Part shown: piece by piece, positions 9,736 to 43,024 of the stretch | Position numbering within the stretch: position 1 is the stretch's first letter | How the letters are laid out: each line of letters starts with the position of its first letter | Origin: Halichondria panicea | Taxonomy: Eukaryota; Porifera; Demospongiae; Suberitida; Halichondriidae | Reading direction: 5' to 3' | DNA: 64,000 bases | Assembly: GCF_963675165.1 (NCBI RefSeq) | Contig: NC_087385.1 | Coordinates: 3,720,501 to 3,784,500, forward strand | Made by a program: the position numbers and the translations under genes | The notes under the pieces: model-generated | Databases searched by the model: none | What the model saw: the letters and a program-made list of their open reading frames with translations, nothing else | Told to the model about the DNA's origin: nothing

Positions 9736-12700
9736 ATGGTCTTGCAATACTATTTCATCACTTCACTGTTGCTTCTATCACTATCTGGCAGGGCTCATTT
9801 GTCCTCTGATGGATTACAATGGCTGAATGTTTCCAATGCCCTTGAGAGAGGAGCACTCTGTAATGACTTCTCTACAGCTGGATACTTTGTTCGCACTCAA
9901 TATTCACCAAACAAATCAACTATGTCGAGGGGGTGGATAATTTATCTCGAGAGTGGGGGAGGATGTACTACACCCGAGTCTTGCAATACCAGATTCATCC
10001 ATCAGCCCGTTCGTAACAATTATACAAGCACAAAAAACAAAACACTTTTTGTTGATGTTCAACAGGCTTGGGCTGACAACAGGGATAATCCCTTAGCTGT
10101 AACTTCAAGGCTAATGACCTCTCTTTGGAGATTCTCCGAGGATTCTAGACGTGATGAAAGTACCTGGATGGTTGACGGGAGAGGAATTCTATCAACTGAC
10201 CAAATTGAGAATCCAGACTTTTATGACTACAATCATGTAGTGGTTCCGTACTGTAGCAGTGATCTATGGTTGAAGAAAACAAAAGAATTCATCATTGCAA
10301 AGAACAACAGTTTTCGCTTTCATTTTGACCCGAATGCAAAAGACCACCAATTCACATTTCGTGGAGCAGCCATCTTCGTGAGTGTCATTGAAGATCTCTT
10401 TGAACAACATGGTCTCAGCAGCGCAATAGATGTGATTCTTGTAGGTAGTAGTGCAGGGGGAATTGGAGCCATGAATCATGCCCCTTGGCTGAGGAATCAG
10501 CTCCATATCAGGGCAGGACCACACATTACAGTCTACTGTTTGATGGACTCCTCTTGGTTTATTGACTTCAGAGGCAGTATTCGAGATCAATTTGCCCCAG
10601 ATGAAATACTACCTCTTATCGAAACAGGTGAAGTTGTGGACTCTTGTCGTGATGTATCCGATGATCCAAGTGTGTGTATATCGTCACTCTATTTCCTCAC
10701 TCACTACAAGGACCTTCTGAAAGACATTCCAACATTTGCTCTGTTCAGTCGATATGACTTGTATCTTCTCATAAGCTCACTGCAGCATGTGGACATGGAC
10801 ATTTTAGAAATCATGCGAATAGTCTCAGAATACAGCGGCAGCATGAATGCCTCCCTGTCTGCTGTTGCTACCGAGGTGCCAAACCTGAGTTACTATGTCA
10901 CTTCATGCTTCCAACATGTGTATTTGGCGACATCTACGCTGTGGGGAGAGGGCGGAGTACTAGGTACTGCTGGGATTGATGGGGAGTTGGAGAACAACCG
11001 ATTTGGGTAAGTGAGATTTTATGTTGAATATGTTGACCTCAACAGTCTCACTGCATCGAAATGAACGGCATACACTAGCCTATATGATTATAATTATACT
11101 AATGCTCATCATTCTATTTGATATACGTATATATATAGGCACATAATTTCAAGTGAGGTGTGGACAAAATTCCACCTGGAGCATCTGAACACTTCTCTGG
11201 TGTTGGAACACATTAGCATTCAGAAAGCAATCCATTACTGGCTTGAGGCTGTGAAATCAGGGTATGTGATTGTGTCAGTGTGTCAAAAGTGAAAGCAACA
11301 GACAACACTGCATTCTAGTGCATTAGTATGTTCTAAAGTCCTTCTTTGCATGTACGTGTACAAAAGCAGAATAAGTTGAGTGGAAGTTCTGACTATTCGT
11401 ATGAATGTAGGCGTGATAGCCAGCACCATGCATGCATGCCTATATACCAGTGAACCAATACAAAATTAAAACGTTCCCACGGACGGGGATTCAATTAACC
11501 CGAGACCTTCTGCGTGTAAAGCATAATTATGTGCTATACATCTTGCAGAGATTTACATATTCTATAATTATAATGTTGTTATGATATCTTTTTATGATCT
11601 ATACACAGACTTAGTGTGAGGTACCATGACCAATGCAGTGGCCCTCATTGCAATGTGCAGTGCCCAGAGACAATTGTACTGGGGGAGAATACACCCTACT
11701 GGGAGGTGGAGGTGAGAGTCTGAAGGAGCTAGCAACTTTGGTATGCATGCATATGGATCTATACTGTACCATACGTCTATATAGCATCTTTGGTCCACAA
11801 TTACTAATCTCGACAGGGCTAAAGTATTCCATTGTGTCCTTCATAAATCCACCTTCGAATAATTATACCCACACACTGACGCACAGGCCCAAGCAGTTCT
11901 TCTGGCCATTGTGGTGTTTGTGTCTCTGTCCTGTGTGGTAATGAAGGTACTGTTGAGTGTGAGGGCATACTACCACAGTCGCAATCAAAAGCAGTTTGTG
12001 GAGTGGAACCGTAAGGGGCTGGGTGACAATTCAGAGTCAGCTGTGAGTCTTTTCATTGGGCATGTTAAAAAGAACTATGCACAACAGCGGCTCAATTTGT
12101 CTTTTGTACAGCTATATGTATGACTACATACGGTTTTTGTTTTATAGCTGCCGCAATGCAAGGACATTGATGCCATTTCTGTTGCCTGTCTCAATCTCAG
12201 GTATACGTATATACCGCTATTGCTGTATAGAAAGCTAGAGCATAAATTATGTTATATGTATTGTACACATGCATGGTCTCTACATGCTTGTAGGTTGTTT
12301 AAAAAAAAAAAAAAACAGGTGTGTTCTCATGCAACAATACAATTATGAGGCTCTGGTTTTTTTTCTAACCACATGTCCAATGTGCAGGTACTCAGTCACA
12401 GTGAAACAGATGGATCTGAAAAAGGTATCTTCTCCAGCTCAGCGCAAGCGACTCCTTTCCCTAGCAGCTGCTGACAGTGAGTCTGGGAGGATGTCGAGGT
12501 GTGAGGCTGGTGAGGATGAGATGCAGCAGCTGGACTCAGACTCTGAGGCAGATCTGACACCAACTACTGAGACTGAAGAGAACGGTACACATGTATTATA
12601 TGCGTATACATAAATTTCTTCATTGTGTATTTTACACATGCACCTCAATACATTCATAAGCAGTCGTACGTATTACAAAACCCATGTGATTTCTCTTCTT

Positions 12701-15700
12701 CTAGATTTTGCCAAAAGCGTAAAACAGTTTCAGCAGATGCATCACAATAACAAAAACAAGCAAAAAGGACGATTCAAAGGTAGTCTACATGGTAACGAGT
12801 CGTCAAGAAAAAAACGCAAGAAGGTTATTCTTAAAGGGATCACAACGTACTTCAATCCTGGAGAGTTGGTGGCTATTATGGGCCCCTCAGGTATACCGAC
12901 CAATCAAACAAAATTATGTGATGCGTTTATTTTCCAGGTTGTGGTAAGACTACTTTCCTGGACTTACTAGCTGGTAGGAGAAGTGGACGAGACAATTACC
13001 AGGCACAGTTCATAAACACGTCTTACAATGAATATTATGGACATTGCATGTCCAAGCCAGGCGCCTGAAACGCTATACAATTCCTATACAGTGCATCCCT
13101 TAGGTTTCCGAATGTTCATTAATCTAAACTGTCCTATTGATAATGCACGTAATAACAAAACATCACTATAATCGGAATGGGTCCCAGTTGTTAATGACAG
13201 GGAATTTTCTTTATTAATTATGTGCACACTATCTATGCGTAGCATCTATTATTACTCTCCCACATGGCAATTTATGTGATTGAAATGCAGGGTGAGATCT
13301 ACATAAATGGCATCTCAATGGATGAGATTCGTGACTGGTATGTGGCTAACACTGGGTACGTCCTCCAGTTGGCAATGCCCTATTATGAGGAGCTCACTGT
13401 GAGAGAAAACGTGACACTGGCTGCTCAGATAAGACTTCCAAAGAGTTTGTCTGTGGAGGAACGATTTGAGAGGGTGGAACAGGTCATGAGAGAGGTGAGT
13501 GCAGTTTGTGGAGGGTACATAGTTTATCCTAATTCTACTCATGAAAAATGTAGCTGTATACCTGCATTGGCCACATTGTAATTCCCTTCACTGTATAATA
13601 GACTGGTCTCTACTCATTGGCATCTACCGTGGTGGGTGGTGTCACCGGTCCAGGACTCAGTGGAGGTCAGAAGAGACGACTATGTGTAGCTCTTCAACTG
13701 ATCAACATGCCCAGCCTCATTTTTTTAGATGAACCAACATCAGGTGAATTCCTAAACATGATATCTGAAATAATTATAGCAAGCACTTATTGGGTATTAT
13801 AATTTAAGACCTGTCTGCGTGTGCTGACTCTGGAGTGAATATAGAGTACACTACAGACCATTTTACACAGAAACCCTGAAAGGCTTTTTTCTATACATGC
13901 AGGCATACTCTGTATACATGCATGTCTTCAAATAGCCCCGATTCCAGGCCGTGAGGCAAAAAGTTTCGTTACCTCAGGTCTTGATGCAACCTCCTCACTG
14001 GAACTTTTATCTCATCTGCACCGAGTGGCCAGCTCCAACAGAGCAGTAGTCCTCACCATCCACCAGCCACGACTTGAGATATTTCATATGTTCGATAAAG
14101 TTATTCTACTCTGTCAGGGACAGGTGAATTATGTGTGGTGAATTATTTAAGGCCTAACGGCGTGCAGTCTTATCTTCAGCACCAAATGCTGACGACTATG
14201 CACTATAATAGCTTATAGTAATTGTAATTTTACCGTTCAGATGGCATAGCTGATTAGAACTATGTATTTCGTCAGCCAAACACAGGTATAATAACGTGAT
14301 TGATATAATATACCATGAAATAATTATATATTAAGGTTCCGTTGCTTTACATGCAGATAGCATACCATGGGATTCCAGACAAAGCGTATGAGGTGTTCCT
14401 AGAGGCTAACCAAGCCGAGGGCAAAAAAGTGGACTCGCTAAAGTCCAAAAACCCTGCTGGTAATTTACATTATACGTTGCCTCCTCGATGCGTATAACTC
14501 TCAATCATTTTTCCCACTCTACAGATGCCATCATGGATATGCTGGGTAGTGAAGAATCTCGTGCATCCATCTTGTCCTACTACCAGACAAGTGACGAGCC
14601 AGAGGCAGTGGAGAATGCTATAGAGGAGGTCCGCAATGTGGGTAGGGAGAGTGTCTCCAGTAGACAGGTCTGGGCACAGCGGTAAGTTATATAGAGCACC
14701 TACCGCATGAGTGTGGCCTCATGAGAAAATGAAGCTCTCTCTTGTCCTTGTGCATAGATTCAGTACTTAGTGCAATTGCGAGTGTTTCAATGAATATCAG
14801 TACTCGGACAAAATTAATATACATTCATTTTTCTTGCATTTTTCGATTAAAGCATTTTAACTTGTATTTAGTGCACCTACATTATTAATTGTTACTCCTC
14901 TCAGGCCGCAACAGGAGTCTGGTGTCCTGAATCGATTGTCTTGCCTGGAGACCCGTGCCTCAATGAGAGCTGGTCTGGGACAGGTACTTTACTTGCCCCT
15001 CATCTTCATCGTCTATGGCCTTCTACTAGGTATGTATGATTGAAGGTGTGAACCTATTTCGCAATGGTATGGTCAGTAGATGTAAGCACAATTCTACGTC
15101 AACTATGTGTGGAATTGTGTAACAGTTAGTTGGCTGCTAGATATACTAGATACCCAATATCACACCATGGTCTTGATTCACACCCAATCTGGCGTGCAAA
15201 CAGGCACGGTGTATATCCAGACCACCAATCCCACGTTTATTTTGTCTGGTTATGGAGTGTTCAGCTGTGCCAGTGGTCTCTTCATGTTCCCCATCGTCTA
15301 CACCTATCTTTACAGGGCTTTAGAGGTAAGGGTGTGCCCTCAAGGTTTATGTACGTAAGAGATACTTAGGCTGGGTTTATCTTGCCGATAGCGATATTGT
15401 TATTTTTGTATGACTCTGGCGAACCAATTGTCATGCATACAAAAATTATGTGCAGATATTCTCACTGGAGTATTCTGATGGTGTGGGCAGTCCCATTGAG
15501 TTAGTACTACAAACTTTCCTACGATTTACGTCCTTGGCCCTCCTCCCTAATTTGGTCTGCTCCACAGCCATCTACTTCCTGGTGTGTCCTCACTTTACAT
15601 GCACCCATGACACCTTCCACCCATTCGTGTACTCTCTATATTTTTTATTTAAGTATAATGCTGGGCCATTTGCAGTCACACTGTATAGTCACATTTATAC

Positions 15701-18700
15701 ACATTTATACCTACTATACACCACACAGGCGGTACCGTACTCCAAATACGACCCTTGGGTGTTTTCTCAGATCACAACTATTGCCATCTCCATTAACCAT
15801 ACCTGGATTGCTTTGGTGATATTTGTTCTTACTGCACAACCAGGGTTTGCTCACAGGATATCTCCAGTGCTCAGTGCCATCGCTGGCTTTGCTGGGGGCT
15901 TCTTTGTACCCCCTAAACTCATGCCCCCCTGGTGAGTAGTTAGTTACTTCTTATAGCCTTAGTCTTCTCTATATAGCATAACTACTTTTTTTTTTCTGCG
16001 TTACCACTTCCATTACATATGTATGTGTGTCTATTAACTGCTTGGGCCACCTGAAAACATGGAAACATACAATGCTGGTATAAAAGCATGCATCCTTAGG
16101 GCCGACTCCTTTCATTTATTGTTGTGTGTGTGTATAGCCATGCACCTCTTTTATTTATGGTTGGAATAAGGCAGCCACTCTACAAGTGATAGCTACTATG
16201 TCGTGTCACTATCACATTTTGTACCCCCACAATAGAATTAGGCTATAGGGAGTGGGCGTTGTGTTGATTGCATATACATAATTATGTGCTGATGTACGTA
16301 GTTGGGTACGATGATTGGTTTAACCTTCGGAGGTTATAGCTCTTCTCTCATAACACAGCTGGCCAGTTGGTCTAGTGGTATGATTCTCGCTTCGGGTGTG
16401 AGAGGTCCCGGGTTCAACTCCCGGACTGGCCCTCTTTTTCTTTTGCATGTGTGTGCATGTAAAACTATAGTATCGCTTAATACAAAGGGGAAGAAAGCCA
16501 CTTAGCTCTATACAAGCAATAAAATCCCCAACTATCTTTATTGGTTGGAGTTATGGAGTAGACAACGTCGCCGCCCTTGACCGTTGCATGAAAAAAGGAC
16601 CGGAATGGAGCGTATCTACGGCGCAATAGTACGAACTTTTTTAAATGGGTGCTCTGCCATTAGATAAATTAAAGTGGGTTTTGGCCATGTCTCTAGTCAA
16701 TTAGCATGCACACTCTGATTTCTACGAGCAGAACAAAACTATAGATCGACTTGATTCCCGTCCTTCTTCCGTGGCAACAGTTGAGGGCGGTGGCGCCTAT
16801 CTAGATATGATTGCACATCAGTCATGTCGATAGATCTATACAGCCAATTGTACATACGGAGGCTGACAAATCTGGAATCATACAGAGCTGGCCAGTTGGT
16901 CTAGTGGCATGATTCTCGCTTAGGGTGCGAGAGGTCCCGGGTTCAACTCCCGGACTGGCCCAGAGTCATTTTTTGATTTTCAACGTGATATTTTATAAGC
17001 ACAGGTCATTATTATAATAATAAAATGTTGCACTAGATATACCTTTACCTTTCCATGTATTGCATCCTTAGCTAATAGACTCACCTCTTGCCTCATATGT
17101 ATAATTATAGGTACAGTTGGTTATTCTATATCAACCCAAATTACTATGGGTTCTCTGCAATGGCTCGGATTCTGCTCCAAGAAATTGAACTGGGCTGCCA
17201 GTACCAGTCCCCCATAGAGTGCTATCCCTCCTCCAGTGCCTACATCCTCACCTACTTTGACCTGCACACTATAAACCCTTACCTTAATCTATTGGTGAGC
17301 ACTTGTGAAGTACGAACATGACTTAGTTAGTGTATGTGTAGATCTATACAGATATGTGCTTGTCTGTCAAAAAGACTCTACCTTAAAGGTACAGACGGGT
17401 AGTAATTTCAGATTTTTCTTTGTTTTTTTAGTGTACCAGATTTGTACCAGATTTGCACACAATATTTGTCAAGTATGAGATTTAAGCATTTTCATAAAAA
17501 AGTTTTAATGAGATTCATTATTATCAGCGCGCACATTAGCAAATAATTATTAGTACCCTAATTATGCTGTATAATAAGTTTCAGCTATAATTATATATGC
17601 TATGCACTTTTACTTTGCAGGTGCTGCTTACAATGACCGCTATTTTCCTAGGGCTAGCTTGGCTTTCTCTTTCCTACAGACATTCTTACATTATGTCTCA
17701 TTTCAAGAAACTTTTCGCCAAAAAGTAAGTAATTATGTATTAGTTATTGCCAGAGTGCAACATGCCATATATTGCACTGGAACAATATAATGCCCGAGGG
17801 CATTATGTCATCCAGTGCAATATATGGCAAGTTGCACGAGGGCGCCTGCAATAACTAACTTGTTGCCCAATGACGTTAAACTCGTCTGACTGGTCATATA
17901 AATCGACATGTGTTTTGAAGGAATTTAGTGTATTCATTAGTTTTGCTGAATTCCATAGTAAATTTTTAGGTTTTCTTCCACTAAAAGTAGTAGCCTATAA
18001 AAGGGACCACATGAGTTATTGGGTGGGATGGTGGGGCATAAGTCCCAAATGGATATCTTTTAAAGAAGTCTCACACACTTACAATCCAGTGCAATATATG
18101 GTAGCCATGGCAGTGATGCAACATGCCATATACTGAGCACTGGATTGCTTTGATCTGCCCACTCACTGGGCAACAACAACTGATATGTACTGGCGTATGT
18201 GCGTACATGTTCATCTTCTTTTAATCTCTTAGGAACAAAAGCTCTACTAGCTCAACAACCAGTAAATACAATCATCCCAAAGATATTCTCACTCCCAGCC
18301 TCTCCATGGAATCCATCACTCTCAACCAAGACAACATTACCGAAGAGTTCAAGAAGGTCACCATACAGCCTGTTAGGAGACTCTCCCTCTCAACTAGTGA
18401 TCTCAGTGTTGATGAGGTTGGAATAATGACTGAGAACAGGAGATTTCGACTACGAAACAGAATAACTGTCTCTCGCATGCTTCAAGATGGAGAAAAGCAT
18501 CAAGTGTGGACTCCTGGAAATATTAGCCCTACCAAGACAGCATCACAGTCATCTCAGGTTAGTTGTAAATAATTATCCTGATTTTGTCATCATCGACATT
18601 CTAGAGCTATCCCATGTTCTATCTATAGAACATGGGATAGCTCTAGAATGTTATATAGCTATAAATTATAGCTATATAGTACTGGTTCTTTATACTTCTT

Positions 18701-20705
18701 GTGAGTAGTTTGGTCACTTTAAGTAATGTATATAATTATTTACATGTTACATAGGCTTCTCTTGAGGAGCGCCGAAGGACACTCTTTCAGAGGATTAAAA
18801 CGGTCCGTAGTAATTCCAATAATAATCAGCCCAAGCACCCCCCCAAAAAGGGTGCCCTGAATGTCCCGTGTAGGGACAATATTGCTCGACGAATTGCTCA
18901 GTGGAAGAAGATTGAGGAAGAGGCAAGGAAACTTAAAGAAGAGGACAGTGAAGTAAGTACTGCACTATACCTATATACACGCATGTGAAGTATGGGCACC
19001 CTGGAGTGTATACATGTGTGTGTGTGTGCGTGCGTGCATGTGTGTGTTTTACCTGAATATTATACTAAGAGTAACTGGCAACGTACACTGTTCAAGTACA
19101 ATTTGTGTCATCAGGTTAATACATGCATGTAACTCCACCTATGATCCTAACTTATCCGATTTGCCACCCACTGGCACCACTCCCTCTCTTCAGCCATATT
19201 CTTCACCCATGTCTCCACTCATGTCGTCTGCGTATCTTAACTCGAATAAACTCCCAAAGGGTCCTGAAGTTAGCACTGAAAAGACTGCCTCTTGTCAAAC
19301 ATTGGGGATACGGAATCATGTTGCCTCTGTGAATGGTATCGGCAAATTGCCGTCTGAAAAAGCACATAAACAATTAGCTGTTGAATCAACGCTATCTCAA
19401 CCTAACCAAGCGCAGTATTTCATCTTTCCTGAAGTTCTGGGAGAGCTGACAACCAAGGACAGTCATTGTGTAGACACTCCCGATACTGGTGGTGCCCGAA
19501 ACTTAAGCGCATCATCTGGGACCAACTCTATACCTTTGTTTCATATGCACAATGTATTAAACGTTCAAACACCTCAGGGCATAATCACCTCCACTCAATC
19601 TCCACATCCTGTAAAGACTCTGCCCGCCCACACAGGACAAACGGAACACACAGTTACTAACAACCTATATACAGTTCCGGGGTCCCCATTGGTTTTCACT
19701 GTTCCACCTCAGGAGACAAGACGTCACAGAAGCAATTGTACCCCTGTAATGGACTCTATCATTGAAGAAACCAGTAGCGAAGCTTCTTCGCCAAGTAACA
19801 GTCTGTCTGAATCGAGAGTTCTTCCACTGATGGAAAACGAAGAGATTGACATGGAGGAGAGGAGCAGTGAAGACTGTGGTAAATTGAGCTCAAATGGAGT
19901 ACAAATCACACCTTTTAAGAGAGAAGAAATCGGCACCAATGATCATGATGAAAAAACCCATCTAGACCACTTCATTGATTCCAACAGCTGTTTTAACTCT
20001 AAATCTGCACTTTGTTCGATGGGATGTATTCCACACACTATCCAAGATATTATCACTACTGTGGAAAAAGCACATCAAGATGACACCATACGATCAAGCC
20101 ACATCACTGATAGGAACAAAAAAGCAGTCATGGCAATACGTCAAGACAATGTACCAATTCCTGAACACAATACTGATTCAGAATCTCACATTTTGAGCTT
20201 TCCATTCACTCTAGAAAAAATGAGCAGAACGTTGGAAAAATCTTCTATATTGCAGTTAAAAGAAGGCCTGCATTTGAGAAACTCATCTCCTAGCGAAAGC
20301 AGAAAACATAGTGAAAAACACAACAAAGTGCAGCCACAACAAAGGCAGCCACTGGCCCTCAGCCTTCACAAAAGAGTAACCACCTCAAACCCGTCTACTC
20401 AGGAAGTAACGAAACCTCAAAGAGGAAATATTGGCACTGGACTGAAAACCCAGGAAACGTACCACACAAAGCACAACATTAATCTCAAGCCAATTCCTGT
20501 TTCCAGTCCTACCAACAATCTTGTGATCCCGTCTCCCAGACAAAGCAACTTTCAAAATGATGCTGGTGAAATTTATCAGCAAACAAATGACTTTACCACT
20601 ACTCAGTTGATTTATGTGGCCAGATCCCCCACAAGCCAGTCTAACGATGTTAAAACTCAACCAGAGGACGTCTCACACATCCACTACCAACAAACTGACT
20701 TTTAA
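9736..20705 (+). CDS. Notum-type carboxylesterase fused to an ABCG half-transporter with a long tail
   Basis: Exons: 9736-11006, 11139-11261, 11609-11711, 11887-12042, 12148-12200, 12388-12584, 12705-12890, 12938-13002, 13291-13494, 13602-13743, 13978-14123, 14357-14459, 14525-14681, 14905-15029, 15204-15325, 15456-15581, 15729-15931, 17111-17294, 17621-17724, 18233-18557, 18755-18952, about 19116-20705. About 1960 residues. Residues 1-20 are a signal peptide. About 25-500 is a Notum/pectin-acetylesterase domain with GSSAGG (Ser239), Asp341 and His394 where human Notum has its triad, and the C-terminal [11 protein letters not shown] block. One membrane helix follows (about 502-522), then an ABCG ATPase: GPSGCGKTT across an intron, [21 protein letters not shown]. 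Next come six membrane helices with NPNYYGFSA, and a Ser/Thr/Pro-rich tail. The topology is coherent: esterase outside, ATPase inside. Intron 8 appears to be GC-AG. The final junction (18952 to 19116) is one base out of phase, so the tail join is unresolved. Substrate unknown. Confidence 0.88.
16361..16432 (+). tRNA. tRNA-Pro (CGG)
   Basis: This is a 72-base cloverleaf: acceptor GGCCAGT pairs with ACTGGCC, there is a D-arm TGGTCTAGTGG, an anticodon stem CTCGC/GTGAG (one G-U pair) with loop TTCGGGT giving anticodon CGG, and a T-arm CCGGGTTCAACTCCCGG. A run of five T follows at 16435-16439 as Pol III terminator. It lies in intron 17 of the Notum-ABCG gene, same strand. Confidence 0.93.
16890..16961 (+). 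tRNA. tRNA-Pro (AGG)
   Basis: It has the same fold and almost the same sequence as the copy about 530 bp upstream, but the anticodon loop reads TTAGGGT, giving AGG, and the anticodon stem is fully paired (CTCGC/GCGAG). Six T at 16969-16974 form the terminator. Both tRNAs sit in one intron and probably arose by local duplication followed by an anticodon change. Confidence 0.93.
17740..17857. repeat. Long inverted repeat in a Notum-ABCG intron
   Basis: The arm TAGTTATTGC...GCCATATATTGCACTGG is mirrored by CCAGTGCAATATATGGC...GCAATAACTA around a centre of CCCGAGGG. A related, shorter hairpin with the same CCAGTGCAATATATGG core is at about 18086-18149. It looks like a MITE pair. Confidence 0.6.
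18596..18651. repeat. Perfect 26-bp palindrome in a Notum-ABCG intron
   Basis: Two perfect 26-base arms (starting ACATTCTAGAGCTATCCC) are separated by four bases. In RNA this would form a very stable hairpin. It has no coding role and lies between exons 20 and 21. Confidence 0.75.
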
Positions 20706-21116: not shown

Positions 21117-22867
21117 TCAGTTGAATTTATAGATGACGGTTTCCATACAAAACTCCCATGAAGCTGAAGGAAAGGAACACAATTAGCTACACAATAACTC
21201 ATGCAAGCTCGTTCTCAGGGAACTGCATATACACCGGCCACAATGAATAGACAACGAACTGTAGATTATGACATGCTATCTATACACTAAATCACTACCA
21301 TATACCATATTACTAGAATATTTTGCGGGTGAAAAACCTTTGCGAATGAGCCAATCAGCAAAAAATTTGACCCTCTGCGATCTAACTATTGCGTTCTGGC
21401 AAGGATCGTGTGTATTTACTAGTAATAATTTAGGTTTTGCGGATGTTATTAATGCGAATTGATCAACCCTCGCAAAATTCGCAAATGTTTGATGCTCGCA
21501 AAACATTCTAGTAATACGGTACAGCTCTAGTTCACACCTTTCCCCTCAGTGGCTCGCTGGGTTCTGTCCTGCAGTTGTATTGGTGTTGATAGGATATGTG
21601 CTCCTTGACCTTTGAGCCCCCAGAAATGCGTGATGGCTCGTTGATTAGCGGAACTGCACCAAAATAATTATGTGACAATTAATTGAATGGTTCAGTAAAG
21701 AGTGGTTTGTGTTGATTATATACACCCACTGAATTATACTGTTTTGATTAAACTGCTATTAGGGTATGCAATGTAGAATGAAAGTTTGCCAACTTAGACC
21801 ACCTATAGTACTGCAGGAATTTACCATATTAGTACATTTATGGGCCTAATGTTCGGGAGGAGACCACTTGCTGGTCTTCTGATGCCCCCAAAAGTGTGTG
21901 AAGGTTTGGTAGTGGGAAACACACCCATTGTTAATCTGTTATCATACGCCTTCGCATTTAGTAACATCCTCAACCTAAAACAAGGTACAGCAATGCTATG
22001 TTACATGGTCGCGATTGGTTACGTGGTTGTGTATACGTAAACAGACCACTGTAGCTACGTATACGTATTATGTACTAACCGATTCCTTTAGCAAGTGTGA
22101 TGTGTTTATGAAGAGGAGGTGGTCTTTGGTTACCAGGCAGATATTGATAATCAGAATGAGATGTGGAGTCCAAGTTGTGAGTAGTACTGTGTATATTTGG
22201 AGGGGGAAGGGTCGGAGTTTTTATGACAATTAAGCACTGGGATGTTTAAATTAACTGTCAAAGTCATACATGTATACGCAGTTAGATTCAATGTAAAGTT
22301 CTGACTAATGACTGTGCTTTCATTTGCAGCTCGGGTTATGGTAAGATTAATGCATCACTCGTAAGCCTGTTACACTATAATGTTATCTCAGGCATTTTAC
22401 TAGTTCCAAATTCCAAATGAGCTGCAAAGCACACTGCACTATGGGGGTGAGACACAAAACACACATTAGGATTCTTACGCTTTCCTCAGAATACCCTCAT
22501 CCTTCCCGTGATCCCAGTGCAGACAATCCTCCACTGAAGTGCTCATCTCATTGGGTAGGATGTGGCGTATGGGCTCATTGATGAAGCGAGGATTCTGTCG
22601 AAGGAACTTTGCATTCATACCTTTCTTGTACCGAGGTTGTGAGGGTTGGACAATAAGCCTACTGTTTGGGGGAGGAACGGAATTTTGCTCTGGTTGTGCA
22701 TCAGCTGTGTCTGTTTGATAGCCCAATTTTCTGCTCAAATCTGATTGGAGAATTTGTTTGTTTGTCTCGTTACCAAGGAGTTTAAAAGTAACTTTCTTGG
22801 GTGACTGATAGTCATACAGAGTATTGTCTACTACTTTCGTATCGACGGTCTGCTGCTCTTCACTCAT
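21117..22867 (-). CDS. Uncharacterised 233-residue protein, four exons
   Basis: Minus-strand exons 22867-22479, 21974-21825, 21653-21538 and 21163-21117 join in phase (2, 2, 1) through consensus sites (for example GC|GTAAGA, TTTTAG|G, TTCCTTCAG|C) and end on TGA, exactly 702 coding bases. The protein starts MSEEQQTVD, is rich in Gln, Asn, Pro and Arg, and has short blocks such as GMNAKFLRQNPRFINEPIR, TFGGIRRPASGLLPNI and ITHFWGLKGQGAHI, with a C-terminal WEFCMETVIYKFN. No membrane segment or known catalytic motif is visible. Small Pro/Arg-rich proteins of this style include ciliary microtubule-inner proteins, but that is only a guess. It shares a divergent promoter with FBXO11. An upstream in-frame ATG at 22945 would extend it by 26 residues. 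Confidence 0.7.
21303..21521. repeat. MITE-like element with TACCATATTACTAGAAT ends
   Basis: The ends are inverse complements (TACCRTATTACTAGAAT against ATTCTAGTAATACGGTA). The interior is a Ser/Phe-codon-poor, GCAAA-rich segment almost identical in reverse orientation to 49015-49226. It is inserted in the last intron of the unknown gene. Confidence 0.8.
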
Positions 22868-23021
22868 TGCTCCTGTGCCAGTAGCCGCCGTTGCTATGAG
22901 AACCAATGTAGATTCTTTACTCCAAATAGTGCGCGGGTATCCCACGAAAATTCACATGGTCGCACAACGAGTAGGAGGTGCACAAAAAAGATCAGAACCA
23001 GTGGGAAAGAACTGTTTCAAA
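22868..23021. promoter_or_regulatory. Shared divergent promoter region, unknown gene / FBXO11
   Basis: The two most likely start codons (22867 minus, 23022 plus) are only about 155 bp apart; with the alternative FBXO11 ATG at 22956 the spacing is about 88 bp. Promoters, and possibly overlapping 5' leaders, must share this interval. Confidence 0.5.
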
Positions 23022-26000: not shown

Positions 26001-29000
26001 TGCAAACACAAAGGATAAAATTTTAGTCTTCTAAAAATTCCCAGTCCAAGTTAGCAATTATCTGTAATTCTATGCCATTCAGCTTTAATTCAGTACATGC
26101 TCTTCATACCTTATATGAGCCCTGTGTACTAGCAAGTGTGCCTGCCATGTGTGTACTTGATTAAGGTATACAGGTGTGTACATGCTTTCAAAGGCTTTGT
26201 AGTATTAGCTGGGCTTGGGAAATTGGAGCATTATAACAGGATAAACATTCTGGCTTAGATTGGACAGTGAAGCAGCCTATTAGGCAGTAGGGTGTGCTGA
26301 GTGTGCTTTGTCAACTAGTGCAGCTGCATATGCATAAAGCTAAATGAAATTTATAGCCTCAACAAGCACCCTACTGTTATGACCTCAATCAGTAGGCTTT
26401 ATTGTGGTAATTACGCTAGCATAATGTTTACACTGGCACTGCTTTGGCTCCTTGCTGTGTCAAGGTGGGTTGGGGGAGGATCGTCCAACCGTATTCATAT
26501 GGTTACAGCCTTTTGAGTATGCTTGATTAATTCCTAGTTCCCAAGTGGTTCTCACAATTTCCTTCCTTGCTAGTATGTAACAGGATTTTAGTTTATACTG
26601 TACCATAAGAAGGCCTGCAAACGATCTCCTTGAGGTTTGAGACTTGTACAAAATTCATATCCTGTTAGTCCATGAGAGCACAATGTCTATAAAATCTGTG
26701 TCCATGGCTTCTGCAATATAATTGTCTTGATATCTTATCTTTTAATTGCCTGTGTATGCCCCCTTGCCACATACTCCCAACTTGCCAAGGCTGCATTGTA
26801 GGCTGACCAGCAATTAGACAATGCTCAGCCACCCCACACTAAGGTTACACATTTATGCTGGCACCACCTTTCCCACAATACCATTAGAAGGCTCAGGTTT
26901 GTCTACCAAAACCTCCAACATCTGTTTATAGGGAATTTATGTTTCTGGGTTGTAAGAGCCTGTTCAGAGTGGTTTGTGTACAAGACATTTACATGGCATT
27001 AATTCTTAAAGGGCAATGTTTTTACAAGGACATGGAAGGTTTACAGGTGTTGTACATGTACATGTACATGGAATTAATTATGTAGCAGGCATGGTGACCT
27101 CATTATACAAAGTAGCTACATGTACATGTTAGAAAAATAAATACATGTAGATATATTGCATCTATGATTGTCCACTTTGCCCTCTGTTTAAAAGTGCTCT
27201 CCAATTAATTCTTTAGGGTGATATGATGGCCCACATCCTGTCCCCTGTGTAGTCACAGGGGACAGGTCATGATGGCCCATTGTGTCGGGTCTAACCAGGT
27301 TGCTACATGTAATAGAGCCCAGCCACACATGAACTGTGATGTGCATCCCCAGTATGCCTGTGGGAATTGGTCTCTCGAGTCGGTGTATTGTTTGATGTGC
27401 AGTGGGCCACTTCCTGTAATTGGCCCATACTATTATTTTGAGGACATAGTGCATATTGACACACGTCTTGAAACGTACTTCTTCTTCTCCTATCTACACC
27501 ATGCAATGATTTTACTAAGTCTTAATCGATTTAGCTCAAATTTCCATTTATTTAGCTGTAGGTGTGCATGCTGGTATGATCTCAGCAGTGTAAACTGAGA
27601 TATTATGTACTCTATAATTATTATGTTCTGGTCTACTAGCTAGTAAGCAGCTAATAATTAAATAATTATGTACATGTAATAATTATGTACATGTACTCTC
27701 CTGCTGATTGGATTGCTCCATCCTTTGATGTTCATGGTTGGCCTGTGCAATACAAGTAAGTGGCCTTATGCAGAGGCATCAATACTGTGATCTTATGAAT
27801 TATGAATTTCCTGTGCTTTGATTGCTCTACATGTTTATACGGCTGGTGTCAAAAGTGTTCCCACGTGCATGTAGTAAATTAATCATAGCTAGAGGAACAT
27901 AAATATTGGATATTGGATTGCCTTGTTTTTGTAAAGCTATGGATCATATTTTGTGAACTGATAAGCTCTATAATTATTGTTCACTGGATGGCTGCTCCAG
28001 TTGATACAAGATAAGAGTAAATGCAATCCACCCACTTTTGAGAGCTTAGGTCATCCACCATTGAGAATGAATTTCAGTTCGTGACTAGTAATGCATTTTA
28101 TTGCCAGCTCAGATCAACAGATGTTTGTGTCCTTTTGGTAACTGAATATGTCTGTAAAGTGGTGATAAGCTACTTAATTTAATATCACCTACAGACTTCA
28201 TCCTGATTTCCCTAGCAACAGACGAGGATCATGGCGTTTAAAAAGTTTTAAAAATTGTATTGATGGCTGTTGTGTTTGATGTTACCCAGATGAAAGGAAT
28301 TTACACTTTTGCATTTTATGGAAGGTCACATTGCATGATGTGCACCAGCCTAATTTTGAAGTGTAGCCTCAAAAGTGGTGCTAATCTCCCCACAATCTCT
28401 CTTGCTAAGCAGCTCCTCTGTAAACAGCCAAGTGTGGCCCCACTCAAATGAAGCACTACAACAGCCTGGCTAGCACTTGTGATAAGCACTTTGACCACTC
28501 ATCCTGCTAACCACACAACCAACAGCTGCCAAGCACTTCACTTGGAATGCCACTTGAAAATTAGATCTTGGGGGGGGAAGGGGGAAGCATCCATCTTTCA
28601 AAATAGCTATAAGGTTTTACATGTAAGTCCCATGAAGTTCATCGGAGCACTGTAAACTAAACTAGCTGAAGACTTTTTTGTGTAGTAGTTAATTTGCAAC
28701 TCTACAACTGTTTAGCCCAATGTACTACATTGGTTGGCTGATGCTAGCAATGTGGTGCTAATTGGCACACCTGCTGAAGTTTGCACTGATAAAATTGTGC
28801 TGTGTCAAACCACTCTTTCATGTGTGCACTACTGTTTTCCCATGCCTCAGGTATTCTGTTCCTTGTAGATTCATTGTGCAATTTGTTTCATTGTTCTTTG
28901 TGTGTCTCTCATGGTTAGCGGTTAACGTGTTTTATGCCTTCCTACACATCCATGTATCCACCCGCTGACACCCTCCGCCCCTTCTTTCCCACACACAGTC

Positions 29001-32000
29001 CTCCCCTACTTCAACGAGTACCTCCCGACAGAAGTTCTTGTTCACATATTCTCATTCCTTCGTGAGCGAGATCTGTGTAGAATAGGCCAAGTCTGTCAGA
29101 GATTCCGACAAATCAGTAACCTGGAGTCACTCTGGAAAAACCTTTTTCACCGTGTGTTTGATATGTGTGAAGCGTACATCCCTCCCACCCCCTTCCCCCA
29201 GTCATCCTTCACTAAGGGAGATGAATCAATGGACTTTTCTGACAGTGGCGAGACACTGATGCCCTGGAAAGCACAATTTCAAACAATGGTGAGAGTTCAT
29301 GTGTACTACATGTATGTGGAGTGTGAACGTACTGGAATAAATGCGTGTAGACACGGGGTGTGGGTCCTAGTGTACTATGCAGGTGGGTAAGAATTTATTG
29401 ATGTGCATTGTGGAATGTTGTAATGTACACACTGTCAGTGGTACATGTCGGAGATCAGATGTGCTTTGCATGATGTGTGTGTGTGTGTCAGCCTCTCAGC
29501 ACAGCTGAATGCTCCAAGAATGTCTCCGATACTTTACCACACACTCTTATGAAAGTAGGAGCAGATATGACAATCATTTAATCTGCAAAAGTTTTGTCAA
29601 TAGAACCCTCCCCTGTGTAGCCTTCGAGTCTTCACTGATAGATCCAGCTACGTGTACGATTTAGGCATTGTAGGGCCATGCTTTTATAACACGTATAATT
29701 ACATGTACATGTTAGGCACAATCTGTAGAATTTGTTGTAATTACACGTACATGTGTATGTCCTACATGACAACGACTTGTACGTGTTTCAACACATAAAA
29801 AAAAAAAGAGAGTGTATTATTTCATTGTGTACCTATAATTATGCAGCACGGTTGCTCCCATGTGTACCAAGAGATGGCAATATTGCCTGAAGACCACCCC
29901 CTCCGACAAGAAGCTAAAGACACAAAGGTAAGTGATAAATACTATTATCGTAAAATGGTTGCCCTGTAAGAAGTCAGTGTAAGTACAACCAAACATGACG
30001 TATGATTGGCGAGCAATTAGGTACTCTATACTACCTTCCCTCCCTCGGTACTCTATTTACATTTTTGTTTTCATGCACCCCCAGTGGCAAGCACTGACTA
30101 GTCCCAATTGGTTGTTGGCGTTTTCGCCAGTTGATGCCATATGTTGCCGACTTATACTCATTAGTGACCTAAGCTGCTAATTGGTGCTTCAAAGCAATCG
30201 TGATTAGTAGCCAAATAAAGATTGATTAGTGGTCCACATTCCCCACAGCTTCATGACTTCCTTGTAATTTTTACCCACCAGAGACGAAGAATGCTAGTAC
30301 ATGTACATGTGTTTCCTGGGTGTATTAGCCACACATTCATTCCTTCATTCCCAGATAATCAAATTAGATACATCTCACCCACGTAGTACCGTGTGTGTCC
30401 CCCACCTTCACACACACACACCCCCTCACCACTCTCTCCCCCCCCTCACGCAGTATTACGCCACAATATCCGATGCGATCAGAGCGTCTTCGAAGTGTGA
30501 GCCCACCAGAATCATAATCCACCCCGCAGTATACAATGAGAACATCATCATAGACAGACCAGTGCAACTTATAGGATCAGGTAAGGCTACATGTATGTGG
30601 TCTTAGTGTGTCATTCTGTTAGTAGATTGATCATTTTATGTCCACTGAGCATGCACATAGTCTCGTTATTATTGCATTTGTTATCCTATTGAACTGACAC
30701 CATCAATTTACCCCCCTCCCCACAGACCAGACAGTGCGGCTCGTCAACTCCTCCCAGACAGTAGTGGAGATCACCTCCCACACAGGCCAGGCTGCTGTCT
30801 GTAACTTAACCATTCAGGTGAGTGTTGTGTGTGTGTATGCCCTTTGTATCTTTTAGAATAATGATCTTTACCTACATCTGTGTCCCTTGCCACACACACT
30901 CATACCTACCACACTCCACATCACACACTATCATCCCCTTCCACGCACGCCCTCACAGTTTGAAGCCCCTGAAGATTCTCCCAATGTCCGACACTACTGC
31001 CTGCGTATCTCGGGTGCCTCTGAGCCTCACATTCATCACTGCTCTTTCACCAACAGCTCTTTCTGTGGGTCGTGTATCTATGTACACGGGGAGGGGGCAA
31101 AGCCACTCGTTTCTCACTGTATGATAGCCAGAGCCAACAATGTCGGGATATTTGTGGACGATCACGCACAGGTGAGTCTTGTTCATTCTGTGCACAGCAT
31201 ATTGGATTTGCGTGTGCGTATGTTACCTTACATTCAGCTATCTGTGAACTTATAAATGCTGTTGGTTGAGTCTCTTATCTATGTGTATACCTACTGTATG
31301 TGCTTGTGTACACTACACACTTGTACAATTCCCAATGTACATGTACACACATTGCCCCGAATTAATTCGTAATGTAGCACTTGGGCAATACCTACATCTT
31401 ATATAACTTTACCTTCACCTCACAACTTGAACTGTACTGTAGGGTCGGTTTGAAGAGAATGATATTCATCGGAACAAGCTAGCTGGAGTGTGGATCAAGA
31501 ACTACGCTAGCCCAGTGTTCAAGAAGAACGAGGTCCATCATGGCAAGGACGTAGGCTTCTTCATCTTTCAAGATGGGCAGGTAACAGCTAGCTCCTAGTT
31601 ACTGGCCTCGTACAACTATTTTACTGCATCTTTCAATTTATGCTCTAGTACTCACTTTGATCTAAAAACTGTTTCCTTCATATTGTTCTTTACGTATAAA
31701 CTAAGGCTCTATTGTTCCAATAAGTACTTTATATATATGTACCAATTTGGCATTCACTAGCTGTTGACTGTGTGTAGGGTTACCTGGAGGAGAACGACAT
31801 CCATAGAAACAGAATAGCAGGTGTAGAGATTAAAAATGATGCCAACCCCATTATCGAACGGTGCACCATCCACCATGGCTCAACAGGAGGTGTCTACGTG
31901 CACGATAAGGTAATGTGTGGGAGGGGAGGATTCAAGTACATGTACTTGCTTTGAGCGCATGACAAGTGTCAGTATGTTGAACACTAAGTGGTTTATTGGA

Positions 32001-35341: not shown

Positions 35342-38300
35342 CTAGCTGACAGTTGAGTCATGAACTAGTTGAGGTACAGGGAGTTCTGAGAAGTAACCGT
35401 GGGCGTCTTTAACCTTGTCCATTCGGATATTGTACACGGGGTGGGTTGGCTTCTGTGAGTGTGTGAGGAGAACGTTGCATGTGTATTGTAAACTATATAC
35501 AAGGCCTTAATAACGCAGCAAAAATTAAAGCATAAAAATTGTGGTTGAAATCAAGAGGTGGTATGCTAAAGGCTATCTACAGGTGTATAGCAGCCAAAAG
35601 ACAATAATTATACTAGTCATGTAAAAATGCACAAGCACTAACCTAAAAAACCTTTTCTATCGTCAAAACAAAGACATTACCGCAATGTCTATGCCAATAA
35701 GAAGTATAGGCACTGTAGCAATGGAAGCAACACACAGTTTTACCCGGACTGGCAAAATTGGCAACATCCCAATTTGAGAAAGGAGTTACAGTGCATTAGT
35801 TTTTTTACCTATATACGAGTTCATCGTTATAAATCCGTATAACTATACATCATTATACCGGACAAAAAACACTACAACATGATCAATGTTTACAAGTAAA
35901 CCTCCTTCTCGATAAAACAAACCAATCACTCGTGTAAACGGGACTATACACTCACCAGGACTGTCTCTGGGTCTAGTGATATGGTGACGGTGTTGCTAGT
36001 ACCGTAGCAGTGCTGGGCCACTGACAATCCACTCAGACAGTAGCATGTGTGGTAAAAGTCCCTCATTCTGTGGGTGACAGAACAATTGCCATTGAGAGCT
36101 TTGTGTATATGACAGTATTAGCTATCGGATGTGACCACTACAAATATTAATTTTACTGAGTGTTTTTATAGTGCCACTATACGATATACAGGTAGTAAGC
36201 TTAAATGCATGTCAGTGGTGAAAAATGGTGCAGACGACACAAATCTCACAGCCACCCCGTACGACAGGATTACAGGAATGCGCACGGAGGGGCGTTATAT
36301 GCTGGACAAAATCCTTAGTGTCAAGGCAACTGTACTATGTGTAGTGCATAGAAAGTCAGCACACACCACTAGAATTACTCACTTGCCCGGCTTGTCGATA
36401 AGTCCGCCATGAGGACTCTGACAGCAGTAGAGGATGTACTCCTGGAGTGCTTCTTGGTTGAACATCCACAGCTCACAGTCGAGGCTAGTATCTCCTGGGG
36501 GTAGAACAAAAACAAAATTTATAAGAAGGACAAGAATAATCATATGGACTACGTATGTGCACATAAGCGCATGTACATTACATGTAGTTGATACTGTTCT
36601 TGTTCTGTAATCTAGCTCAGGTTACTAAGCCGAGGACGATCAGAAAATCGATACGACGTGTACTGTACAAACAAGGAGTGTTGTAGAGAAGTACAGGTTG
36701 CAATTAATATACCTCTTTCTTTCAGTGTGTGGTATATGAGTGGGAACACACCCCCCTGCCAGAATGAGTAGCAGCCATCCACCAACTTGTTAGTCCGACC
36801 CTATGTGGAAATAAAGTGATACTACACAGCACAATGCTGGCCAGTATATAGTGTCGCAGTACCTGGAATCCACCCTCCAACTTCATCTGTTTCCTACAGA
36901 TCCACCTCTACGAGCAGTAAAGATGTTAGCTATGTCATTGTTAAGGTCAAGTGTACACACACATGCTACCATTAGATTTGCTTTGCTGTACAGTTGGTGT
37001 ACTTAGAATTGCAACTAAGGTAATTTTTGTGCTTTGAGGGCAACATTTATTTTCATCAAGTAAGAACATGCAGCTGAAAAAAACTGTTACAGTGCCATAT
37101 CATACCATTAAAGACCTCATGTCCACCAATTTAGTAGCCTTCAACAACACAGCCGCAGCAAAGCCACAGAAGGTGTAGCCTCCGTGAGCCTCAGTCCCAG
37201 GGACGGCCGAGAAACCACCCTCGTAGGTCTGACAACTAGACACCCAGCCCGCAGTGGCCAAGAAGAGGTCTGTTGTCAATGTGTTGGTGAGCATGGCGGC
37301 CACTAGAGCACAGTAGGCTCCCCTGCATGTGTGTAAGGGGGGATTCATTAACATTAAGTGTGAATAATTTATGGCCTAATAGTTGCTACTAGAATTAGTC
37401 TTGTAGCCGGCTATAGTTGCAGTAGGTGATGATATGTATACTACGTACATGTCGGCACACAACATGTACATAGACTGAACATGATCATCTTTTAGCATTG
37501 CATTTTTGCATTGTCCATTATGTACACATGCAACCACTAGTATGGGATATAATAATAATCATGGCTGCACACATACCAATGGTCACATGACATAGATACC
37601 AGATAAACACACAGAGCTATAGCTAGCTAGCTAAATCATGGCTAACTTGAACAAAAAAACCATGGGCTACAAGTGTGAGTTTTTCGACAAAGTTCCGGAA
37701 GACTACTTCTGCAAACAGTGCCAAAATGTGGCAAAAGAGCCAAACATCACTAGTTGCTGCAAAAAATGCTTCTGTGAGTCCTGTATAAAAAACAACGGTG
37801 CCTGCCCATTTTGCAAACAAGACGGAGTTAAAGCAACAAAAAATCCAGCTTTTGAAGCAAAATTCAAGCCCTTATAGTTCACTGCACAATGAAGGATCAT
37901 GGCTGCAACTGGACAGGACAGCTGCGGTACCTTGATACGCATTTCACGAAGGAATGCTTGATTGACAGAGTCAAATGTGACCAATGTACAGAAAATGTAC
38001 CCAAGTACAACCTGAATACACACCTTGCCAACGATTGCCCTGAAAGAGAGTTTAGCTGCAAGTATTGCAACTTCAAAGCAACGTACAAGATAGTGTCTGA
38101 GCAGCATTTCAACATATGCACATACTACATTCTGAATTGCCCCAATGGATGTGGGGCACATTTCGAGCGAGGTGATCTTGAAGACCACACGAAGATGTGC
38201 AGCCTTCAAAAAGTCCAATGTGAGTTCAGTTATGCTGGTTGTGAGACTGAGTTTATACGAGACCGGCAAAAAGATCACATGGAACAAAACACACAGAAGC

Positions 38301-41300
38301 ACCTTGCCTTAATTGCAGCAGCCCTGAGATATCAACAACAAACATTTTTAAACCTACGAAACGAAGACACACAGGAAAGGGACGAACAGCATATCAGGGA
38401 TGACCAGAGTGCTCAACGGCAGCATGCACCGGGCATCAAAATACAGCGTAAGTATACGAGGAGTGTAAGAACAGAGTGAGAAAAAGATCAAAACAAGTGG
38501 AACAAATTCACGAACAAGAGGAGCAGATACATGTACAGCACCAGTTACAAGCTGATGTGGTAGTAAATCCCCAAGAATTGAGAAATCGACCATATTCTAT
38601 TTCAAAGGTGCTGACTTTAATAGCACCGATATTGCTGGCAATTTTGTTAGGGTTCCACTTTCAAAGCCTGTTAAACACTAATACCAACACGCTGGAAGGC
38701 AGGGAAGATATTGGTCAAAAGGACAAGCTAAATACGTTTGGCCTAGAAATTGTGGAATTAAAAAAGCTAGTTGAACAGCTAAAACCCTTACAAAAAGCAC
38801 CCGAACAAGAAGGTAGAATATCCAGGCTTGAAGACCAGATTACGGAACTGCAACAGTCAATAAAAGACTCTATCGATGAATTGACACAAACATTTAATGA
38901 ACACTCTAATACTCAGGATACTCTCGGTGATATTGTTCAAGAAAAAAACGAAGAATCAGAAAAGAGGATTAGCGACATGGACAGCCTAGTTCAATCTAAC
39001 GACAGGAAGATTCAAGAGCTCTTTGTAATCGCAGGAGGTATGGATGGCTTAAAAGATCGAATTTCAATTCTACAAAAAAAGATTATTGAGCTTGTTGATA
39101 AAATTCTGTTACTAGAACAAGGATTAGGGGAGTTGAAACAAAAGGTAAACGATATTCCTAACCACCCTCCACACCACCATCATAAACACCACGGCGGGAG
39201 GGGAGGATGCCATGGACACCACTAGAGCCGGGCACTAGACATTGGCACACATGATACCTCAACTATTTACGTAGACTATTATTAGTATATAAATGGTGAG
39301 TGCAATATGGGATTAATAGCACGAGTAACAAGCACTGGCAAGGCTACTAATTGCATGAGGCGTAGTGCTTGTTATGAGTGCTATTAATCCCTGATTTGAT
39401 CCAATTTGATTGCACGAGTAACCATACTATTGATTTCTAATCGTGTATAAAGAAGTTCTCTGCAGTTTTATTAACATTTTCACCTGCGGCCGTTATTCGA
39501 AAAACAATACGTTGTAATTGCACGCTGTCAATGATGACGTGAAATTACTGGACCAGATGTGATACGAGATTAATTGCTGCACATAGTCACTAATAGTATA
39601 GCACATATCAGAGGAGGTCCAACACAATCACGTGATCCAGTTTTCTTGTTATATACATTCTTGTTTTTACATTCATTTCCCATGTACATGTACATACCGG
39701 TGTGTTCGCTTTATCAGCATGCTACAAAGCTTGGAGACATGGCTTTATATACTCGATAGGTATTGGGGTGAGCTGACGTGATATTCACTATTTAATTTTG
39801 TCACTTTGTTCAGCCGTTTAGAACACAAAGAAGCTACAACAACAACTTTAAACCTTGCTACTTGTGTACAATATTATATCTGTATACCGAAGTGCAAAAC
39901 AACTCTTGTTTCTTCCTTCTGTTTTCCTTCTGTATTGCACTGAACCAAGAGTTTATGATAGAGAGAGAGTATCGAACGTAGGCATACTGTACATCAGATG
40001 TATGCGGAGAGTAACGTGACTTCCTGTATCTGTCACAAGCTTGGAATTTGCACACTGACCAATCCAAGCGTGGGTGATGTAATCTATCAACCCATCCAAG
40101 TGTGGGTGATGTAATCTACTTTCTTGATAGATGACATCACCCACACTTGGATTGGTCAGTGTGCAAATTCCAAGCTTGTGACAGATACAGGTAGTCACGT
40201 TACTCTCCGCATACATCTGATGTATATACAGTATGCCTACGTTCGTATGGCGCGCCGTGTGTTTCAATAACAATGTCTGCATGTACATAATTTATAGGCG
40301 TGTCCTGGTGTGAATATACCGAGATAGCATGCACGTGCAATGATCGCCTTATGCAGTGATCATGTCTGCACATGCAACCATTAGTCTCTGCGTGTGCAGT
40401 GATCATGTCTGCACATGCAACCATTATAGTCTCTGCGCATGCAGTGATCATGTCTGCACATGCAACCATTAATCTCTGCACATGCAACCATTAGTCTCTG
40501 CACATGCAGTGATCATGTCTGCACATGCAACCATTAATCTCTGTACATGCAGTGATCATGTCTGCACATGCAACCATTAGTCTCTGCGTGTGCAGTGATC
40601 ATGTCTGTACATGCAGTGATCATGTCTGCACATGCAGTGATCATGTCTGCACATGCAACCATTAGTCTCTGCACATGCAACCTTAACCATTAGTGTCTGC
40701 AGTGATAATAATTATAATTATGTCCTTTTTCTTAGCTGATTTTGCGACTCTCCATATGTGCATGCGCAGTAGAAGTTTGCCCTCGTGGCTACGTGTTGTG
40801 AATGTTTAACGTTTGAAAAAAATGTGTTCCAGCCGAGTACTTCAATCAGATTCGTCTTCATCCATGTCCATATCATCTATATATCCATCATTAATTTTTA
40901 ATACATCTTTGATACACGTGCTTTAAATAGAGCTGCTGCATCAGGTCAAAGTATATGTTTCTCTAATGGGACTCAGGTACACCTTTAGCCTCGAGACCAG
41001 GCCGATTAAAATACGTATTTTAATCGGCCTGGATTCGAGGCTAGTATATACACTTAAACGGCCGGTACTGAGGCTGCAGTCCATGCTATGAACCTCGCAT
41101 TTAATTCTAAAGAAGAAAACGCGGTACTTTTGGTCGATGCTAGCAATGCATTCAACTCTCTAAACCGCCAGACGGCACTTAGAAATGTCAGGGTCCTCTG
41201 TCCATCCATTTCAACCATTCTCATTAATACTTACCGCCAGGACACGGAACTGTTCGTCGATGGATCCACTCTGTTATCCCAGGAAGGCACCACCCAGGGT

Positions 41301-43024
41301 GACCCATTGGCAATGCCCATGTACGCCATCGCCCTGAAACCCCTAATGGACAGAGTTAACCAGTCCGTAGAAGTCACCCAGGCATGGTACGCTGATGACG
41401 CTGCTGCCACTAGTGACATCCCTGCTCTTCACAGATGGTGGGAGGAGCTGATCAACATTGGCCCTGCCTATGGATACATGGTCAACGCCTCCAAAACTCA
41501 TCTGATAGTAAAAGCCAGCCAACTCTCAGAAGCCCAAACAACTTTCGAGGACACACAGATCAACATCACCACAATTGGGAAACCACACTTAGGATCCCCT
41601 CTTGGAAGCCAGGAATTCACAGAGTCATTCGTCAGAGATAAAGTGCAGACCTGGTCAGAGGAACTGAAAAAATTGTCGATCATTGCGAACACCCACCCTC
41701 AAGCCGCCTATGCCGCTTTCACCCACGGCATTGTAGGCAAATGGACCTACCTAGCGAGAACCACCCCAAACATAGGCCCACTATTACAACCACTGGAAGA
41801 CATCATAAGGACAAAATTACTACCAGCCCTGTGTGGAAAAGCAGCCCCCAATGACTCAGAAAGGGACCTGCTGGCACTTCCAGCTAGGCTAGGTGGAATA
41901 GGGGTCATCAACCCAACAACTCTGTCAGACTCGGCCTACTCTGCCTCCAAACAAATCTCTGCGCCCCTCTACAACCTCATACTAAATGGAAGTCTGAACT
42001 ATACACACGCGGCTCTCACAGAGCAGTTTACTGCAAAGTTAGAGGTCAAAAAAAGAAAAAGGGAGCTCAACGTCACTTCTGCCGACCAGCTCAAGTCAAA
42101 TCTACCACCTAACCTCCAACGAGCTATGATCTTATCCCAGGAAAAGGGAGCCTCAAACTGGTTAACAGTACTACCAGTGGAAGAATTTGGCCTAGCACTG
42201 CACAAAGGTGCCTTCAGAGACGCACTAGCACTCAGATATGGATGGCAACCCAATGGCACCCCAATCACATGCGCTTGTGGCACCAACTTCACAGTGGAAC
42301 ATGCATTATCATGTGCAAAAGGCGGCTATCCCTCCATAAGGCATAACGAGATCAGAGACTTCACGGCCAACCTCATGTCAGAAGTTTGCCACAATGTCAC
42401 CATAGAACCACACCTACAACCCATCACCGGCGAAATTCTATCAGGTGCATCTGCCAACACACAAGATGGTGCCAGATTAGACGTGGCAGCAGATGGTTTT
42501 TGGGGAAGCAGGTTTGAGAGAGCATTTTTTGATGTTAGGGTGTTCAACCCGTACGCTCCCTCAAACAGGCAACCGCAACTATCCACAACCTACCGCAAGC
42601 ATGAAAACATAAAGAAGAGAGCCTATGACCAACGAATCAGAGATGTAGAAAACTCAACCTTCACTCCCCTCATCCTGTCAAGTACTGGGGGCCTTGGACG
42701 TGCCGCTACCTCCACCTACAAGAGACTGGCGTCTCTCCTGTCAACAAAATGGGATCAGCCCTACAGCACCACCATGGGATGGATCAGATGCAGGCTGTCC
42801 TTCTCTCTCCTCAGATCAGCCATCATGTGCATTAGAGGGGCCCGATCAAGCCAAGGGCACGCCACCAGACAGCCCCCAATGGACCTAGTGACAAGCGAGT
42901 CCCTGGTCCCACCACACCCATGAACTAACAACACTTGACTTATTTGCCTGCATGGTTCCTCATTATTATTATTATTATTTTGTACATGTAATTCTTCTTA
43001 GCCCCGAGATGGGAGAGCTTTTAC

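Follow-up and report, generated by a model that had tools for sequence, protein, structure and literature searches.

Notum, a palmitoleoyl-protein carboxylesterase that inactivates Wnt by removing its lipid, is a secreted, stand-alone enzyme, and ordinary ABCG proteins have a cytosolic N-terminus. In yeast Adp1 and plant ABCG24 and ABCG28 a leader or an extra helix and an extracellular N-terminus come ahead of the ATPase; to our knowledge these ectodomains hold no enzyme domain. The 64-kb stretch of the Halichondria panicea genome analysed here (G000:C9:3720501-3784500, all of which is called "the window" below; the genome is 131 Mb in 39 contigs, and contig C9 is 7 Mb long) carries a gene, gene 1, that encodes both a Notum-type esterase and an ABCG transporter. 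No report of such a Notum/PAE-ABCG fusion was found in the open-licence literature, eukaryote protein collections lying outside the scope of that search; both halves belong to known families, and what is new to us, as far as that literature goes, is their combination.

As originally predicted, the interval 9736-20705 (+ strand, like all parts of gene 1 given below) holds one gene: 22 exons, joined by phase and compatible throughout, encode 1,934 amino acids (5,805 nt coding) in a reading frame whose sole stop codon lies at its end, 20705. A whole-genome search with the PAE family gave 10 matches at five places, three of which then run on into ABCG sequence, and a second search with the esterase of the contig C7 copy as query returned seven matches (up to E 0.1) at the same five places. 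The three esterase-ABCG genes are gene 1, a tandem copy on C9 and the copy on C7, and all have the same domain order. In the C7 copy a single uninterrupted frame of 696 amino acids (L009:728-2815) contains the PAE domain (160.9 bits), Cys-rich stalk, membrane helix, linker and Walker A (ABC_tran, 39.3 bits over profile positions 1-43), so the fusion no longer depends on guesses about splicing; the leader of this copy is on its own exon outside the frame. The tandem copy, whose first exon (leader and esterase start) is at 62877-63155 (+) and which we traced past the window to C9:3796780, has its Cys-rich stalk and membrane helix within one exon, and in both paralogs the Cys-rich segments are similar to the gene 1 stalk. 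Together with the gene 1 phases, these two structures uphold the claim that a Notum-type esterase and an ABCG transporter share one gene, and the break into two genes between 11711 and 12042, which the original prediction had set against its own reading, is countered at the DNA level by the C7 frame. Eight of the 16 exons tried in the tandem copy (9-12 and 15-18) clearly match those of gene 1 at AG/GT sites in the same phases, an agreement that is partly by construction since the search imposed the gene 1 phases; under those phases exons 4-6 and 19 gave no match, 7-8 were merged, 13-14 were ambiguous and the last helix was not found.

Exon 1 of gene 1 (9736-11006) encodes residues 1-423, which comprise the leader and the bulk of the Notum/PAE-type esterase with Ser239, Asp341 and His394; exons 2-3 (11139-11261 and 11609-11711) encode the end of the esterase and the Cys-rich stalk (residues 424-499). 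Exon 4 (11887-12042) holds a membrane helix, TM0 (residues 503-521), and the beginning of a cytosolic linker ahead of the ATPase that continues through exons 5-6 (12148-12200 and 12388-12584). Walker A is in exons 7-8 (12705-12890 and 12938-13002) and the remaining ABCG ATPase (Q-loop region, LSGGQ, Walker B and H-loop) in exons 9-11 (13291-14123); exons 12-13 (14357-14681) link it to the ABCG membrane domain of exons 14-19 (14905-17724, residues 969-1256). Exons 20-22 (18233-20705) encode a long, presumably cytosolic C-terminal tail of 678 residues beyond the transporter, a part of the protein absent from the original prediction; a scan of the exon 22 open frame gave no Pfam match up to E 0.1. 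Twenty of the 21 introns are GT-AG, and one is GC-AG, its donor closing exon 8 at 13002 (CAG/GCACAG, the slash marking the splice point); this join is sound because both paralogs have a CAG/GT donor at the same position (letters read by eye). The start of exon 22, set at 19194 (pyrimidine-rich acceptor, phase 0) and not at the open-frame start 18957, is the least certain splice call in the model. Intron 17 contains two sense tRNA-Pro genes (16361-16432 and 16890-16961, both +, anticodons CGG and AGG); in the C7 paralog the coding segments that flank this position abut, and the intron is missing there. Introns 19 and 20 contain 27-nt inverted repeats (17755-17837, 96% complementary with a 29-nt spacer, and 18596-18651, 100% with a 2-nt spacer).

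In Pfam comparisons of the joined residues 1-1257, PAE (135.4 bits; PF03283 cut-off 26.6 bits), ABC_tran (93.7 bits) and ABC2_membrane (36.8 bits) each score over their cut-offs. The putative leader is hydrophobic, with a peak 11-residue mean hydropathy of 2.11, and is too short for the 19-residue scan, where at 1.16 it falls under the membrane-helix threshold of 1.55; its shortness is one of the weaker points of the gene 1 architecture. Residues 1-499 include eight N-glycosylation sequons and 11 cysteines. TM0 is strongly hydrophobic, with no K or R in the 15 residues before it and three in the 15 after, a charge pattern that fits an N-out, C-in topology. The core motifs named in the original prediction are all present: Ser239 (in GSSAG), Asp341 and His394 of the esterase, and Walker A, LSGGQ, Walker B and the H-loop of the ATPase (Walker A at residue 694, GYVLQ at 740, LSGGQ at 805, [12 protein letters not shown] at 825 and TIHQPR at 860). 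The pump half, in which the ABCG order of ATPase followed by membrane domain is kept together with Walker A/B, LSGGQ and the H-loop, is like the ABCG half-transporters (White, ABCG1, ABCG2, ABCG5 and ABCG8) and PDR, and PDR, ABCG2 and ABCG1 lead the best 60 of its 558 matches among solved structures. Unlike ordinary ABCG proteins, whose N-terminus lies in the cytosol right before the ATPase, the gene 1 protein places a leader, an enzyme-type ectodomain and the extra helix TM0 first, and TIGR00955 ("pigment precursor permease"), which aligns over 38-612 of its 617 positions, scores 286 bits, well under the subfamily cut-off of 736 bits. Judged by sequence, the pump half is an ABCG-type half-transporter, and membership in the TIGR00955 subfamily is not supported by the score. 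The six transporter helices of the original prediction are suggested by this near full-length alignment, with ABC2_membrane above cut-off, whereas a hydropathy scan of the domain marks four segments, not six.

Like Notum (CE13/PAE), gene 1 has a leader, a PAE hydrolase domain, GSSAGG, PYCS(S/Q)D, the triad Asp and His, and an equivalent of Phe268; unlike Notum, its esterase is not a soluble single-domain protein but is joined in frame to a membrane helix and ABCG. The three copies do not differ at Ser239, Asp341 or His394, nor in GSSAGG, PYCS or Trp274-Phe275. HMMER aligns Ser239 with Notum Ser232 and the invariant Phe275 with Notum Phe268 (numbering counted from Ser232), whereas the Asp and His, beyond the HMMER match, were assigned by conservation and motif. 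Notum is a carboxylesterase and its Phe268 a residue of the palmitoleate pocket (PMC8172013). Notum is also the closest solved structure (E 2.2e-19 with the single sequence, 6.1e-30 with a profile of the three copies), and the nine distinct sequences matched up to E 1 comprise eight of Notum and one unrelated hit (E 0.45). In a tree of the esterase core (six partial rows on long branches, with a program warning of long branches meeting) the three fused esterases and human Notum split from two stand-alone PAE-type esterases at 99/99, and a clade of the fused three against Notum has only 72/70. This grouping and the best structural matches justify the label "Notum-type". Core identity to the fused esterases is 34-40% for human Notum, 28-30% for the stand-alone esterase L011 and 28-38% for the other, L010, whose row is short; over 81 shared columns gene 1 is 40% identical to human Notum and 38% to L010. 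The stand-alone proteins, at C9:5.26 Mb and C9:5.75 Mb, belong to the same Pfam family as the fused esterases and have GGGWC and, in L011, where that exon was read, GCSAGG, which is of the plant type (plant PAE motif GCSxG, PMC5465549); no segment resembling the gene 1 ABC half lies within about 8-9 kb downstream of either. All three Notum-type esterases detected in the genome are thus ABCG-fused, and two exon-by-exon searches, which could miss a secreted Notum that is divergent or split into small exons, found no separate Notum-type gene.

Comparison of gene 1 with its tandem copy shows that both halves are maintained as protein, with the ATPase under the strongest constraint. Over the 162 codons of ATPase exons 9-11, dN is 0.145 and dS 1.13. 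For the 209 codons of membrane-domain exons 15-18 we obtained pN 0.41 and pS 0.80, and for the 123 codons of the esterase block pN 0.38 and pS 0.92, pS being saturated in both; a control with random codon pairing gave pN 0.74-0.75. Among the three copies the esterase cores are 40-43% identical and the four compared ATPase segments 47-83%. In an ATPase tree of seven rows (the fused three, a pair of ABCG genes from contig C3 whose rows are without some segments, and two fungal PDR domains) the three fused ATPases form one clade at 95/96, and the simplest history is a single fusion followed by duplication. The C3 genes (G000:C3:7685500-7694500) are similar to each other, lie head to head and are apparently unfused; they appear to start shortly ahead of the ATPase, with no leader or ectodomain, though exons further upstream are possible. 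A genome search with ABC2_membrane gave eight matches and missed both C9 genes, so that it is no proof of absence; further ABC-gene places lie on C4, C16 and elsewhere, and the reading for ectodomains covered the three fused genes and the C3 pair.

The best explanation of this architecture, and in our judgement a fairly likely one, is that the fusion protein couples ester cleavage to lipid transport. It would dimerise like other ABCG half-transporters, placing two esterase heads per pump on the outer face of the membrane; the heads, by their predicted activity, would remove by hydrolysis an acyl group that is ester-linked to a lipid, or to a ligand modified with lipid, in the outer leaflet; and the pump would flop or export the lipid that the heads act on or produce, cargo of this kind being suggested by the ABCG family. 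Cleavage and lipid movement would then be brought together in one spot. The presence of Wnt and Frizzled genes in the genome (10 Wnt matches, on C3, C6 and C12, and five Frizzled matches, three of them strong) makes Wnt a candidate substrate, and an ester of a lipid or sterol is just as possible.

Several points weigh against this explanation. The Notum loop EGGWYC reads ESGGGC in gene 1, EGGGGC in the C7 copy and ESGSLC in the tandem copy, so that Trp128-Tyr129 is replaced by Gly-Gly, Gly-Gly and Ser-Leu, respectively, and the mouth of the pocket must differ from that of Notum. The Gln found at the third position beyond the triad Asp (D340xxQ343, PMC5465549) has no equivalent in any of the three copies. 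Because these residues are not kept, the substrate may differ from Notum's; the predicted activity is nevertheless possible because the Notum oxyanion hole is made by backbone amides at 126-128 and 232-233 (PMC8172013). An alignment-free structure prediction of the exon 1 stretch gave a mean pLDDT of 32 and a pTM of 0.24. Finally, dimerisation and a lipid cargo are taken over from the ABCG family, and the coupling itself we infer from the architecture.

We rank the coupled machine first, followed by an anchored deacylase, a non-catalytic capture domain and a released enzyme. An anchored deacylase of Wnt or another ligand, in which the ABCG half would do nothing but position the esterase, seems unlikely to us, although the grouping with human Notum (99/99) and the Wnt and Frizzled genes are in its favour, and in the absence of a detected separate Notum-type gene the fused esterases could be this animal's Notum; the intact ATPase motifs and the strong constraint on the ATPase exons make it doubtful that the pump is a mere anchor, and Notum Trp128/Tyr129 are not kept. 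More doubtful still is an esterase fold that serves the pump by binding its lipid or ligand, hydrolysis not being its main job: the divergent oxyanion loop and the lower identity of the esterase cores than of the ATPase segments would agree with such capture or gating, but the triad is identical in three diverged copies. A precursor role, in which cleavage would release the ectodomain as a soluble Notum-like enzyme and an ABCG transporter would remain, is improbable, the Cys-rich stalk between esterase and helix being the sole point in favour, set against no sign of a cleavage site and a stalk exon that is short (35 residues, 465-499). The notion that exon joining has made one gene out of two neighbours, for which the gene 1 intron between the stalk (to 11711) and the helix (from 11887) leaves room, is rejected by the C7 frame, provided that it is transcribed, since no intron separates the two domains there, and runs against the shared stalk-helix exon of the tandem copy and the phases of gene 1, which leaves it hardly any probability.

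An assembly artefact is likewise rejected, the order being common to three places on two contigs, as is a bacterial or viral origin or contamination, given the 21 introns, the 7-Mb contig and a genome with Wnt genes. Scans of the genome_contigs and viral_contigs collections (profile and single-protein) yielded 51, 45, 16 and 4 pattern stretches and no confirmed relative, and a plasmid scan yielded no relative; these scans were built on a few short peptide patterns and detect close relatives only.

Elsewhere in the window, a frame on the - strand at 22475-22948, convergent with gene 1, matches ciliary microtubule inner protein 6 (28.5 bits against a cut-off of 27), and an open frame at 28926-29387 (+) contains an F-box-like domain (61.8 bits). 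A 621-amino-acid open frame at 41058-42920 (+), which contains a domain of the reverse transcriptase type (RVT_1, 39.6 bits), is flanked by arrays of a 43-bp unit in opposite orientations (40351-40706 and 43135-43333) and has a TRAF-type zinc finger frame on each side (37856-38476 and 43516-45060, both +). The C-rich tandem array at 46346-47008 (periods 39 and 113) probably explains the strong GC skew at 46-48 kb. The pattern CG..YAF has eight matches in the genome against two in a backward-read control, and a narrower version has none there; three of the four loci that were read have CGASYAF in a cathepsin-like context, a motif that we take to be the demosponge silicatein signature. The Wnt and Frizzled genes mark the genome as that of an animal, and the silicatein-like motifs make a demosponge probable.

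Gene 1 and its paralogs unite the Wnt-inactivating type of carboxylesterase and the lipid/sterol type of pump in one polypeptide, and the union has been retained in three diverged copies. A wider reading, which we put forward tentatively, is that deacylase and pump form a coupled cell-surface machine that is also the animal's only Notum-type enzyme, so that deacylation of Wnt or lipid would be linked to an ATP-driven pump here and not secreted, and the secreted Notum of other animals and the tethered form would represent two different outcomes for a single ancestral esterase. If the enzyme is active and coupled, the fusion would give a direct handle on how Wnt is switched off in an early-branching animal and on what its ABCG proteins carry. 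The fusion also offers a clue, of the Rosetta-stone kind, that the action of Notum may be connected with lipid movement by ABCG proteins in other animals, where the two are separate.

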